Shown: positions 23,323 through 28,820 of the stretch, piece by piece
How the letters are laid out: the number at the start of each line of letters is the position of its first letter
How positions within the stretch are numbered: the first letter of the stretch is position 1
Assembly (NCBI GenBank): GCA_913052475.1
Contig: CAJXEJ010000002.1
Coordinates: 1 to 64,000, forward strand
Direction of reading: 5' to 3'
DNA length: 64,000 nt
DNA from: an uncultured Dehalococcoidia bacterium
GTDB lineage: Bacteria > Chloroflexota > Dehalococcoidia > Lucifugimonadales > Lucifugimonadaceae
Notes under the pieces: model-generated
What the model saw: only the letters and a program-made list of their open reading frames with translations
Told to the model about the DNA's origin: nothing
The model's database searches: none
Position numbers and translations under genes: made by a program

Positions 23323-23703
23323 TTGGCTACGAAGGTTCGAGGCGTCAAAGGCGCAACAACCACGACCGGAACGACTGCTGAGGACGTACTTGAGGCGACT
23401 GAGCAGTTGCTCAATGCAATGATCGAAGCGAACGACATCGATCAAGATGATGTCGCGGCCGTTCAGTTTACCACCAGCCCCGATCTTGTCGCAGAATTCC
23501 CGGCCGTCGCCGCCCGAGAACGGCTCGGCTGGAACGACGTGCCTCTCATGTGCGGCCATGAAATGGATCGTCCCGGTGCGTTAACGCAGTGCATTCGTAT
23601 ACTTATTCTCTGGAATACCGAAAAGGCTCAGAACGAAGTAATGCACGCATACCTGAACGATGCTGCTACACTTCGCCCGGATCTTTCAACGGCAACCACA
23701 TAA
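23323..23703 (+). CDS. aroH: Monofunctional chorismate mutase (AroH type)
   Basis: KVRGVKGATTTTGTTAEDVLEATEQLLNAMIEANDID, VPLMCGHEMDRPGALTQCIRILILWNT. Confidence 0.92.
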   Translation: MATKVRGVKGATTTTGTTAEDVLEATEQLLNAMIEANDIDQDDVAAVQFTTSPDLVAEFPAVAARERLGWNDVPLMCGHEMDRPGALTQCIRILILWNTEKAQNEVMHAYLNDAATLRPDLSTATT

Positions 23704-23707
23704 AGAC

Positions 23708-23866
23708 ATGACAGAACGCGACCTACAGACGAATTCTTTCTCGACCCAAAGCGACTCCCGCTCGGTTGGCTTCGGCTTTTCGCGTTTTACTTCGTACAGT
23801 GCCGAGTATTTTGGATACACCTATACCGGCGGGCTGTTTACGTACGGACGCTCATATCGCAGCTAG
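23708..23866 (+). promoter_or_regulatory. Candidate Phe/Tyr-rich leader peptide ORF (52 aa) upstream of DAHP synthase
   Basis: MTERDLQTNSFSTQSDSRSVGFGFSRFTSYSAEYFGYTYTGGLFTYGRSYRS*: 6 Phe + 6 Tyr, 11 of them in the last 31 residues; overlaps nested inverted repeats 23831-23891. Confidence 0.5.
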
Positions 23867-24013
23867 TTCTGCCTGACCGTCCGCGCAGCCCACTCTGGAT
23901 TCACGAAGCCTTCCCTCCCACAGCATGCAACTGTGCCGGTCCGACCGAATGAATCACGAACACCAGCCATATCACAAATTCATTTGAAAGTTCAATAGAA
24001 ACCTGATCAGATC

Positions 24014-25048
24014 ATGTCAACGTCAAACATTCGAGTTACCGATCTTAAACCGCTCAGTTCGCCACAATCGTTCATCGACTCACAACCCATCAGTGCCGAA
24101 ATAGCAAAAGTGGTCACTGACACGCGTGCTGCCATCGAAAACATCGAACAACGCAAGGACGACCGAATGGTCATGCTTGTCGGTCCATGCTCGATTCACG
24201 ATGAAAAAGCCGGACTCGAATACGCAAAAAGACTCGCTGCTATTACTGAAGAAGTAAAAGACAAAATCCTCGTTGTGATGCGGGTCTATTTCGAAAAACC
24301 CCGTACGACCGTCGGTTGGAAAGGACTCATCAACGACCCCAACCTCGACGGTACGTTCGACATGCAAACGGGCCTTGAGCGCGCACGTGCGTTCTTGATA
24401 CAGGTATTGAGCCTCGGACTCCCAGCGGGAACTGAATTCCTCGATCCATTCACTCCGCAGTACCTTGCCGATCTCATTTCCTGGGGAGCTATCGGTGCTC
24501 GAACGACAGAAAGCCAGACTCACCGACAGATGGCGAGTGGCCTTTCGATGCCAATTGGTTACAAGAATGGAACCGGTGGGAGTTGCCAAATCGCGGTCGA
24601 CGCGATGGTGGCCGCTCGGTCACCACACGCGTTTCTCGGCATCGACCTTGAAGGTCGCGCTTCCGTGGTCAACACGGCAGGAAACAAAGCACAGCACCTC
24701 ATTCTTCGCGGTGGAGCCTCAGGTCCAAACTATCACGAAGAATCGGTAATTCTGGCATCGAGTCTTCTCGAATCCGCCGGTCTTCGACCAAACGTAGTTA
24801 TCGACTGCTCGCACGCCAACAGCAATAAGGATCACAATCGCCAGCCGATCGTGTTCCGCGATACCATTCGACAGCGTAGTGCAGGCAACGAGGGTGTGAT
24901 CGGACTTATGCTGGAAAGCCATCTGAACGAAGGCAACCAATCTCTGGGCGATCCTGCCGAATTGAAGTACGGTGTCTCCATCACCGATGCATGTATCAAC
25001 TGGGAGACCACCGAAGAATTGCTGCGTGAGGCGCACGCAACCTTGTAG
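24014..25048 (+). CDS. 3-deoxy-7-phosphoheptulonate synthase (class I)
   Basis: MLVGPCSIHDEKAGLEYAKRL, VVMRVYFEKPRTTVGWKGLINDPNLDGT, DCSHANSNKDHNRQPIV. Confidence 0.95.
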   Translation: MSTSNIRVTDLKPLSSPQSFIDSQPISAEIAKVVTDTRAAIENIEQRKDDRMVMLVGPCSIHDEKAGLEYAKRLAAITEEVKDKILVVMRVYFEKPRTTVGWKGLINDPNLDGTFDMQTGLERARAFLIQVLSLGLPAGTEFLDPFTPQYLADLISWGAIGARTTESQTHRQMASGLSMPIGYKNGTGGSCQIAVDAMVAARSPHAFLGIDLEGRASVVNTAGNKAQHLILRGGASGPNYHEESVILASSLLESAGLRPNVVIDCSHANSNKDHNRQPIVFRDTIRQRSAGNEGVIGLMLESHLNEGNQSLGDPAELKYGVSITDACINWETTEELLREAHATL

Positions 25049-25107: not shown

Positions 25108-26034
25108 ATGTCGATATCCGATCTGTTCGCTTCTATAGACGCCAGGAATGGCCCGACGGTCGCCACCGTCGGCACGTTCGATGGCGTTCATCTCGGGCAT
25201 CAATCGCTCCTGCAGCGAGTGCAAGATGAGGCATCGGCACGCGGCGCAAAATCAGTCGCATTTGTGTTCAAAGAACAACCGCGAGCGTTCATCAAACCGG
25301 GTTCGCGAGTAACTTACCTTAGCGATTTTGAAACCCGGCAAAAAATCCTCAGCGAGATAGGGATCGACTCGATTGTCGAACTCAAATTCGGAGCGGCTAT
25401 CCAACAGCTTACGTCGGCTGAATTCGTGGGCGCGCTTCGCGAACGAATCGGGCTAACGGCTCTTGTTTTGGGCCCCGGAGCAATGATTGGCTCCGATCGT
25501 GCCGACGTTGACCAACTATTGGATAACGCAGGACTCAGCGACATTGATTTCAGAGGCGTACCAGCAGCCGCTGTTGAAGGACAGAAAGTTTCCAGCTCCG
25601 CGATTCGAAAGACGATTACCGCTGGTGATTGCGAACAGGCTGCCAAAATGCTGGGCCGCAACTACTCGATTTCCGGTGTCGTTACCGATGGCGAAAAACG
25701 TGGCCGAGAAATCGGCTTCCCAACCGCCAATATCGATCCTGATTTCCCGGTCACTCTTCCCGAAAACGGCATATATGCAACCGTGGCTGAAGTCGATGGA
25801 ATAAGTTGCAACGCAGCGACCAGCATCGGCGTTCGTCCCACATTCGAAACCGATGGAGGTCGCACAATCGAAGCTTACCTTCTAGACTTCGACGGGGATC
25901 TGTATACGAAACGGCTACGCCTCGAGTTCGTAAAACGACTCCGGGCAGAAGTCGCATTCGATTCGGTCGAACAGTTAGTCGAACAAATGAACAAAGACGT
26001 CGAGCAAACCCGTCAGATTCTGGCATCACGTTAG
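25108..26034 (+). CDS. ribF: Bifunctional riboflavin kinase/FAD synthetase
   Basis: VATVGTFDGVHLGHQSLLQRV, GREIGFPTANID, NGIYATV, FDGDLYTKRLRLEFVKRLR. Confidence 0.95.
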   Translation: MSISDLFASIDARNGPTVATVGTFDGVHLGHQSLLQRVQDEASARGAKSVAFVFKEQPRAFIKPGSRVTYLSDFETRQKILSEIGIDSIVELKFGAAIQQLTSAEFVGALRERIGLTALVLGPGAMIGSDRADVDQLLDNAGLSDIDFRGVPAAAVEGQKVSSSAIRKTITAGDCEQAAKMLGRNYSISGVVTDGEKRGREIGFPTANIDPDFPVTLPENGIYATVAEVDGISCNAATSIGVRPTFETDGGRTIEAYLLDFDGDLYTKRLRLEFVKRLRAEVAFDSVEQLVEQMNKDVEQTRQILASR

Positions 26035-26087: not shown

Positions 26088-27401
26088 ATGACCATAAATA
26101 CAGAATTTCAAAACGTAGCCGAAGACCTCGAATGGCGTGGTGCGCTTTTCGACGCCACACCCGGTGCAGCGCATGCTCTCGCAACCAAAAAAGTAACCTG
26201 CTACAACGGCTTCGATCCCACGGCAAGTAGTCTTCACATCGGTAACCTCGTGCCGGTGATGGGACTCGTTCGTCTCCAGCGATACGGTCACACACCTGTC
26301 GCCCTGGTGGGTGGTGGCACAGGCATGATCGGCGATCCGTCGGGACGTGAAGACGAGCGCACGCTTATGTCTGTCGCAGATATCGACTACAACGTCGAGG
26401 CGATTCGATTTCAGCTTGAGCCGTTCCTGGATTTTGAAACCAGATCGAATCCCGCACAAATGGTCAACAACGCCGATTGGCTGCGGACGATCGATCTTCT
26501 TTCGTTCTTGAGGGATGTTGGTAAGCACTTCACCGTCAATTCGATGATGGGGCGAGAGTCCGTCAAAGGGCGATTCGATCGCGGTAACGGAATATCCTTC
26601 ACCGAATTCAGCTACCAGTTACTTCAGGCGTTCGATTTCCTGACATTGTTCGAACGCGATCATGTTGGTTTCCAGGCTGGTGGGAGCGACCAGTGGGGCA
26701 ACATTCTCGGTGGCGTAGATCTTATTCGCCGAATCCACGGAGCCGATTCCGATGGGCGACCGCGTGCGCACGGAATCGCCTACCCGCTGGTGACCAATGC
26801 CAACGGCGAAAAGTTCGGCAAGTCGATTGGTGGGGCGCCCACGCTTGATCCCAAGCAGACATCATCTTACAAGCTCTACCAGTTCTTCCTGAACGTAGCC
26901 GATGCCGACGCAATTCCATACGTAAAACTGTTCACGTTGCTGAATCAGGTTCAGATCGGCAGTCTTGCAGAATCTGTGACTGAAGAACCCCAGAAGCGTG
27001 CCGCGCAAAAAGCACTCGCCGAAGAAGTAACGCGAACAATCCACGGACAGGGCGGGCTCGATCAGGCCCTGAAAGTAACTCAGGCGTTTTTTGGTGGTGA
27101 TATCTCCGGTTTGTCAGCCGATGAGATGGAAGATGTCCTCGAAGGATCATCAGTAACCGAAGTGAACCGAGACCAGTTATCTGGCGAAGGCATTAGGTTC
27201 TCCGAACTGGCGGTTTCAGCCGGAGCCGGAAAGTCCGGCGGCGACGTTCGACGCACCATCGAACAAGGCGGCATGTACCTAAATGGCGAACAAATCGCCG
27301 ATGCGGGCCGCACAGTGGGGGTCAATGACCTCGTAGAAGGTCGCCTCCTGGTAATCCGTCGCGGCCGTAAAAACTACTCTCTAGTGAAGCTGGTGGATTA
27401 G
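26088..27401 (+). CDS. tyrS: Tyrosyl-tRNA synthetase
   Basis: YNGFDPTASSLHIGNLVPVMGL, QAGGSDQWGNILGGVDLIRR, KFGKSIGG; C-terminal S4 domain. Confidence 0.96.
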   Translation: MTINTEFQNVAEDLEWRGALFDATPGAAHALATKKVTCYNGFDPTASSLHIGNLVPVMGLVRLQRYGHTPVALVGGGTGMIGDPSGREDERTLMSVADIDYNVEAIRFQLEPFLDFETRSNPAQMVNNADWLRTIDLLSFLRDVGKHFTVNSMMGRESVKGRFDRGNGISFTEFSYQLLQAFDFLTLFERDHVGFQAGGSDQWGNILGGVDLIRRIHGADSDGRPRAHGIAYPLVTNANGEKFGKSIGGAPTLDPKQTSSYKLYQFFLNVADADAIPYVKLFTLLNQVQIGSLAESVTEEPQKRAAQKALAEEVTRTIHGQGGLDQALKVTQAFFGGDISGLSADEMEDVLEGSSVTEVNRDQLSGEGIRFSELAVSAGAGKSGGDVRRTIEQGGMYLNGEQIADAGRTVGVNDLVEGRLLVIRRGRKNYSLVKLVD

Positions 27402-27719: not shown

Positions 27720-28820
27720 GTGAGCAGCCAGAACCAGCCAAACCTTCGAATACCAGGTCCCGTACCGCTACCCGACGATGTCCTCGAACTCGCCGGATCG
27801 CAGATGATCAACCACCGTGGACCCCAGTACGCCGACATGCTCGATCGCATGTCCGCAAACCTGAAGACGGTTTTCATGACTAAGAACGATGCGTACTTCA
27901 TCACATCGTCAGGTACCGGCGCTATGGAAACCGCCGTGGTGAACACGATTTCGCCTGGCGACAAGGTCCTGTCGATCATCATTGGTGCGTTCGGTGAACG
28001 ATTCGCCGAAATCGCCGAGGCATACGGCGGAGATGTCACCAAAATCACCTTCGATCTCGGGCGGGCTGCCGACCTCGACAAGGTGCGAGAAACCCTCAAG
28101 GGCGTGTCCGACGTGAAGGCAGTGATCTTCACCCACAACGAAAGCTCAACCGGTGTCTCCAATCCGCTGGAAGACCTCTGTAAGGTCATCCACGAAGAGT
28201 CGGATGCGCTGATCCTCGTCGACGCTGTATCCAGTGCCGGTGGGGTGCCTATCGCAGTCGACGCATGGGGCATCGACGTTGTTGCAACCGCCTCTCAGAA
28301 GAGCTGGATTTCGCCTCCCGGAATCTCGATGGTTACCTTCTCAGAGAAGGCATGGAAGGCGTACGAAACTTCCACCACTCCGAAGTACTACCTCGATGTG
28401 AAGCAATACGAGGACTACCTCAAGATCGGCCAGCCGCCGTTCACCCCGTGTCTCCCAGCAATGTTCACGCTCGAAATTGCCCTGCAGTCGATGGTCGACG
28501 AAGGCATCGAAAACGTCTTTGCACGCCATCACGAGATCGCACAGCACACCCGTGACGGTGCAAAGTCTCTCGGTCTCAATCTTCTTCCAGATCCCCGCTT
28601 CGCCTCGAACACCGTTACCGCCATCCGCCTGCCGGAAGGTCTCGACGGTAAGGCGTTCCTCGGTCAGGTAAGCAAGAACTACAACGTGGTTCTTGGTGGC
28701 GGCCAAAAATCGCTTACCGGAAAAATCTTCCGAGTCGGTCACATGGGTTGGGTCGAAAAGGCTCACATTGACGAGGCCCTAAAGGCCGCTGAAGAAACCC
28801 TGAAGGCGATGACTTCGTAA
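27720..28820 (+). CDS. Class V aminotransferase (alanine-/serine-glyoxylate aminotransferase-like)
   Basis: IPGPVPLPDDVLELAGSQMINHRGPQYADML, VDAVSSAGGVPIAVDAWGIDVVATASQKSWISPPG. Confidence 0.92.
   Translation: MSSQNQPNLRIPGPVPLPDDVLELAGSQMINHRGPQYADMLDRMSANLKTVFMTKNDAYFITSSGTGAMETAVVNTISPGDKVLSIIIGAFGERFAEIAEAYGGDVTKITFDLGRAADLDKVRETLKGVSDVKAVIFTHNESSTGVSNPLEDLCKVIHEESDALILVDAVSSAGGVPIAVDAWGIDVVATASQKSWISPPGISMVTFSEKAWKAYETSTTPKYYLDVKQYEDYLKIGQPPFTPCLPAMFTLEIALQSMVDEGIENVFARHHEIAQHTRDGAKSLGLNLLPDPRFASNTVTAIRLPEGLDGKAFLGQVSKNYNVVLGGGQKSLTGKIFRVGHMGWVEKAHIDEALKAAEETLKAMTS

Follow-up and report, generated by a model that had tools for sequence, protein, structure and literature searches.

A tyrosine- and phenylalanine-rich leader ORF with a conserved hairpin around its stop codon as a candidate regulator of aroF in SAR202 Chloroflexota

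Results

An ORF and two conserved RNA structures lie between aroH and aroF

The DNA analyzed here, a stretch of 64,000 nucleotides that we call the window, comes from a SAR202 Chloroflexota genome that is a congener of Candidatus Lucifugimonas marina JH1073; cultured isolates of the clade exist (PMC10444878). Protein-family models identify the gene run at the locus as trpA-aroH-aroF-ribF-tyrS, in agreement with the naming of aroH, DAHP synthase, ribF and tyrS in the original prediction, and the aroF product is a class I DAHP synthase. The order aroF-ribF-tyrS is kept throughout the genus and at most of the family loci examined, and both ribF and tyrS are probably co-transcribed with aroF. The gene content is what one would look for behind an amino-acid attenuator, in that DAHP synthase is the entry enzyme of the pathway and tyrS lies downstream of it. 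Beyond tyrS there is an aminotransferase gene (27720–28820) whose product resembles the L-aspartate-glyoxylate aminotransferase BhcA, far under the model cut-off (283 versus 650 bits). A scan of the leader region for a sigma-70 promoter found none. The features of the region, with the evidence for each, are:

23323–23703, + strand: aroH-type chorismate mutase gene, directly 5′ of the leader (TIGR01796 and PF07736 above cut-off)
23708–23866, + strand: Tyr/Phe-rich leader peptide ORF, 52 codons plus TAG (genus-wide conservation, aromatic columns kept)
23807–23824, + strand: Tyr-Phe-Gly-Tyr-Thr-Tyr codon cluster, just 5′ of the hairpin (sequence; two Tyr positions conserved)
23831–23891, + strand: hairpin A, with helices GGGCTG/CAGCCC, CGGACG/CGTCCG and GCAG/CTGC and the leader stop codon in its apical loop (predicted fold, pair conservation)
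23867–24013, + strand: C-rich, G-poor untranslated spacer (49 C, 26 G), a candidate Rho-loading stretch (composition, weak)
23898–23955, + strand: three-helix domain, GATTCA/TGAATC enclosing CACAG/CTGTG and CGGT/ACCG (pair conservation)
24014–25048, + strand: aroF-type DAHP synthase gene, the proposed regulated gene (TIGR00034 and NF009395 above cut-off; PF00793)
25108–26034, + strand: ribF (TIGR00083 above cut-off)
26088–27401, + strand: tyrS (TIGR00234 above cut-off)

The leader ORF keeps its aromatic codons across the genus

The original prediction had described an ORF of 52 codons with 6 Phe and 6 Tyr and no Trp or His, and this reading is exact: 12 codons specify Phe or Tyr, none Trp or His. 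The locus thus has the short upstream ORF rich in end-product codons that is characteristic of attenuators, and the density of eight Phe or Tyr within 20 residues of the ORF is reached in only about 1 in 1000 dinucleotide shuffles of the spacer. The leader ATG follows the aroH stop codon after 4 nt in the window and lies 2–5 nt past it in 15 of 19 species, although the open frame reaches back to a further ATG at 23660, inside aroH. The lack of a strong Shine-Dalgarno sequence had been named as a weak point; it is a lesser obstacle because the ATG spacing is compatible with translational coupling of the leader start to aroH.

All 18 congeners examined have a recognisable counterpart of the leader ORF in the aroH-aroF spacer, and leader peptide lengths across the genus run from 50 to 61. 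The irregular cases are a divergent leader (L013), two GTG starts (L014 and L015), a leader without the usual stop codon (L017), one with an internal TAG followed shortly by an in-frame ATG, leaving MSGYQSSYFGYTSGLFTYGRSYRS and the stop (L018), and a leader region containing undetermined bases (L019). While the peptide drifts, its aromatic positions are held: columns with an aromatic majority have Tyr or Phe in 84% of cells, versus 69% of cells keeping the consensus at other columns, and three of these columns have Tyr or Phe in 15/15. Within the codon cluster at 23807–23824, which is most likely where a ribosome would stall, two Tyr positions are Tyr in 14–15 of 15 species. Synonymous divergence falls to 0.16–0.20 over the last ∼20 leader codons, versus 0.35–0.66 in the rest of the leader and 0.63 in aroF, as expected of a coding stretch that doubles as a hairpin arm.

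A frame kept over the whole genus, with pN/pS about 0.6 and below 1 in the N-terminal half too, could also mean that the ORF encodes an ordinary small protein and sits between aroH and aroF by chance, and the conservation of the peptide, which exceeds what codon sensing alone needs, does count against our preferred explanation. However, the peptide has no match among protein-family models, its sequence turns over between genera with the aromatic content alone kept, synonymous divergence is low only along the hairpin arm, and textbook leaders occupy the same place in relatives (see below); we consider an ordinary small protein highly improbable. A simple codon-count filter found no similar leaders before trpE, prephenate dehydratase or ilvB in the genus, and the leader device is therefore no general habit of the genus.

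Hairpin A pairs the end of the leader with RNA behind its stop codon

The 5′ arm of hairpin A is formed by the last ∼20 leader codons. The nested inverted repeats that had been proposed here lie where they were said to lie, and in the RNA downstream of a stalled ribosome their pairs (23831–23891, 23836–23886, 23845–23883, 23850–23878, 23859–23872 and 23862–23869) are predicted to form with probabilities of 0.81–1.0. The stretch 23815–23900 is predicted to fold at −30.5 kcal/mol (z −2.6), with 1 of 200 shuffles as good, while the fold of the whole stretch 23700–24030 is less remarkable (z −1.8) and hairpin energies in several congeners are just modestly better than those of shuffles. Across 18 species, 91.8% of hairpin A pairs are kept versus 27–47% for slid controls, and three pairs show double changes. 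The predicted hairpin thereby gives the locus a second hallmark of attenuators, a leader end that overlaps an RNA structure which a stalled ribosome would spare and a terminating ribosome would open. Rfam covariance models, T-box and others, matched neither the leader region nor any of 16 related loci.

The downstream spacer carries a conserved domain and no intrinsic terminator was found

Between hairpin A and aroF, the three-helix domain is conserved, with 87.7% of its pairs kept in the genus versus 20–35% for slid controls, double changes in three pairs, and one pair that exchanges A-U, U-A and G-C; counterparts are present in L002–L018. A GAATGAAT/ATTCATTC hairpin is in competition with the outer helix of the domain in many, not all, congeners. 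The proposed check for mutually exclusive folds gave a divided answer: such folds are predicted in the window species, but they are inconsistent between congeners, and we rejected GATTCA/TGAATC versus GAATGAAT/ATTCATTC as a genus-wide refolding switch as it is absent or different in most of them. Pairing of the leader's ACCGGC with a downstream GCCGGT was likewise set aside, since the alignment, judged by eye, shows no compensatory changes that preserve it.

Scanning for an intrinsic (U-tract) terminator after the leader found none in this genus, bearing out what had earlier been judged by eye, and we take the OFF step here to be something other than an intrinsic terminator. Because no mutually exclusive antiterminator and U-tract terminator were found in the window genus, we do not assign the element to the classical attenuators and claim instead that it probably works like one. 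Hairpins followed by a T run number 9 over the whole window (1–64000) versus 4–7 in Markov controls, and from this near-chance count the genus may seldom use intrinsic terminators.

Two other outputs were weighed. The composition of the spacer fits Rho loading, with a C/G ratio of ∼2 behind the leader stop in the genus, though this is unspecific, since the window's spacer before trpA has a larger C excess and scores higher; a rho gene is found in most congeners, the genome of the window included. The main rival to a Rho output is a translational one, in which leader translation and hairpin A would alter ribosome access or coupling at the aroF start and leave transcription termination unaffected. 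The terminator scan speaks for it, as does the precedent of E. coli toiL-topAI, where uORF-driven translational control feeds Rho termination (PMC12121999). Yet we found neither a Shine-Dalgarno sequence nor conserved pairing over the aroF start, and the conserved three-helix domain ends ∼58 nt 5′ of the aroF ATG, and purely translational attenuation seems less likely than not.

Relatives carry textbook attenuators before aroF

Aromatic-rich leaders with unrelated-looking peptides occupy the same place before aroF in seven further GC-rich genera of the family. In all 46 leaders examined from the eight GC-rich genera the stop codon is enclosed by a predicted fold, although enclosure alone is a weak test, as folded RNA often encloses a given site. 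Genera g5, g6 and g9 have short spacers and no leader. When leaders were tested against shuffles genus by genus, g8 was not significant, the AT-rich g7 gave p = 0.08, and g11 gave p = 1 with a leader that starts inside aroH and was cut off. Some features are peculiar to single genera: g10 (L021, L022, L112–L116) has a second conserved motif, GGTTCYTTTATCCAGG, ∼100 nt before aroF that is absent from other genera, and in several of its genomes aroF and ribF are separated by ∼1.2 kb of additional DNA. In L111 (genus g4), the region of the leader stop codon is predicted to be very stably structured (z −5.2), and GCCGGGATTC and GAATCCCGGC pair there around the end of the leader.

Genus g7 is predicted to have a textbook attenuator, consisting of a leader (for example MNKNYYTYYYFRLTESF or MKKFFYTYYYFRT, each followed by a stop), an antiterminator and a U-tract terminator. 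The leader end AGAGUCUUU pairs with AAAGGCUCU in 8/8 species (100% of pair cells; control (a) of these counts is uninformative because the g7 sequences vary little), and AAAGGCUCU doubles as the 5′ arm of a hairpin with a T run behind it. While a ribosome waits at the Tyr codons, AGAGUCUUU would stay free; a ribosome at the stop codon would cover it.

The same arrangement extends to other families of the order. A Tyr/Phe-rich ORF followed within 90 nt by a strong intrinsic terminator occurs in 18 of 51 aroF upstream regions versus 0 of 255 shuffled regions, and for 8 of these 18 the tail of the leader is predicted to pair with the 5′ half of the terminator (p 0.05 or better versus shuffles). 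None of the 18 has aroH directly upstream within the stretch fetched, an arrangement that 17 of the 51 regions show. Examples from these families are L215, L237, L246, L258 and L263, whose Tyr/Phe attenuators before aroF have the textbook form, with terminator cores such as CCCCAGCCGGCAGCGGCTGGGG-TTTTT and apparently no Rfam family.

The proposed reading of a leader with an attenuator is upheld by the textbook attenuators that precede aroF in the AT-rich g7 and in other families of the order. That reading had been staked on a Tyr/Phe-rich ORF and structure being present in close relatives and on the ORF being something other than an ordinary small protein, and it survives, as both ORF and structure are conserved in the genus and recur across genera. 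Terminators in g7 and other families, and none found in the window genus, could also mean that an ancestral attenuator has lost its output here, with leader and hairpin persisting functionless. Against such a relic stand the strong RNA-level constraint on the hairpin arm and the retention of Tyr/Phe codons in the face of the synonymous divergence of aroF, and we regard it as quite improbable.

Discussion

A model for Tyr/Phe-responsive control of aroF

Comparing sequences across the order, we put the probability of Tyr/Phe-responsive leader control of aroF in the window genus at roughly 0.8, a figure that excludes the output step. Its sensing half, the proposed stalling of ribosomes at Tyr/Phe codons, is well supported by these comparisons. 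Counting against the control are the modest hairpin energies of several congeners, the genera g5, g6 and g9 that have no leader, the length of the ORF, the negative codon-count result before other genes of the genus, and the failure to find a terminator or a conserved switch. As for the attenuator originally predicted, its sensing and its target are supported, while a refolding that controls expression is less secure in this genus, with no terminator found and a switch that is inconsistent between species.

In the model, the leader peptide, encoded within the trpA-aroH-aroF-ribF-tyrS run, would make expression of aroF, and probably of ribF-tyrS as well, depend on how much charged Tyr- and Phe-tRNA is available. 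After finishing aroH, ribosomes would restart 4 nt further on. Judging from the anatomy of the leader, when Tyr and Phe are sufficient the ribosome would reach the stop codon in the loop and hold hairpin A open, and when they are short it would stall at the 23807–23824 cluster and hairpin A would form. By analogy with g7, where the leader end pairs downstream as an antiterminator, hairpin A would be the ON state. For the OFF step, our tentative preference, at a little under even odds, is termination by Rho, made possible by the C-rich RNA that follows the stop codon and becomes free once hairpin A opens; a somewhat less probable alternative is that the freed RNA lowers translation of aroF.

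An evolutionary scenario that we hold at even odds is that a classical Tyr/Phe attenuator of DAHP synthase is ancestral to SAR202 and that GC-rich genera with aroF behind aroH swapped its terminator for a Rho or translational output, giving a device that is internal to the operon, fed by ribosomes from the upstream gene, and has its stop codon in the loop of the switching hairpin.

Comparison with known systems

Proteobacteria and Actinobacteria are known to control aromatic synthesis by leader-peptide attenuation; for SAR202 or Chloroflexota a limited search of the open literature and Rfam found no description of it. The element proposed here would spread such attenuation over an order of widespread, little-studied ocean bacteria, with textbook and terminator-less forms in close relatives. 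Beside this spread, the main interest is the apparent absence of a terminator in the GC-rich genera. The order would offer a natural series for studying how the output of an attenuator can change when its sensor is retained.

In E. coli, the leaders of the pheL-pheA and trpL-trp attenuators have their codons for the amino acid under control upstream of or within a hairpin, and the stop codon lies near it. The window leader is similarly codon-rich with its stop near a hairpin, and the full antiterminator/terminator pair is predicted in g7 and other SAR202 families; the target gene differs, however, no terminator was found in the window genus, and its ORF is far longer than classical leaders. 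Closer in target is the aroR leader (Phe-Tyr-Phe) of Corynebacterium glutamicum, which acts through ribosome stalling on the operon of aroF, a DAHP synthase gene (PMC11802643, PMC4046766). Both place a Tyr/Phe leader before a DAHP synthase gene with stalling as the proposed control, but aroR is actinobacterial and shorter, whereas the window leader follows aroH within an operon and no intrinsic terminator could be found for it.

On the output side, the nearest precedent is found in the cys operon leaders of Mycobacterium, which have residue runs near the stop codon, no terminator and a pyrimidine-rich spacer, and for which the authors suggested Rho (PMC1262725). The window leader likewise has its regulated residues near the stop, a C-rich spacer and no terminator that we could find; unlike these actinobacterial cysteine leaders, which have no conserved terminator-like hairpin, the window genus conserves a hairpin around the stop codon. 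In E. coli toiL-topAI, stalling at a uORF is coupled with control of translation and with termination by Rho in the gene downstream (PMC12121999), but that system responds to ribosome-targeting antibiotics, whereas the leader described here would sense amino-acid supply.
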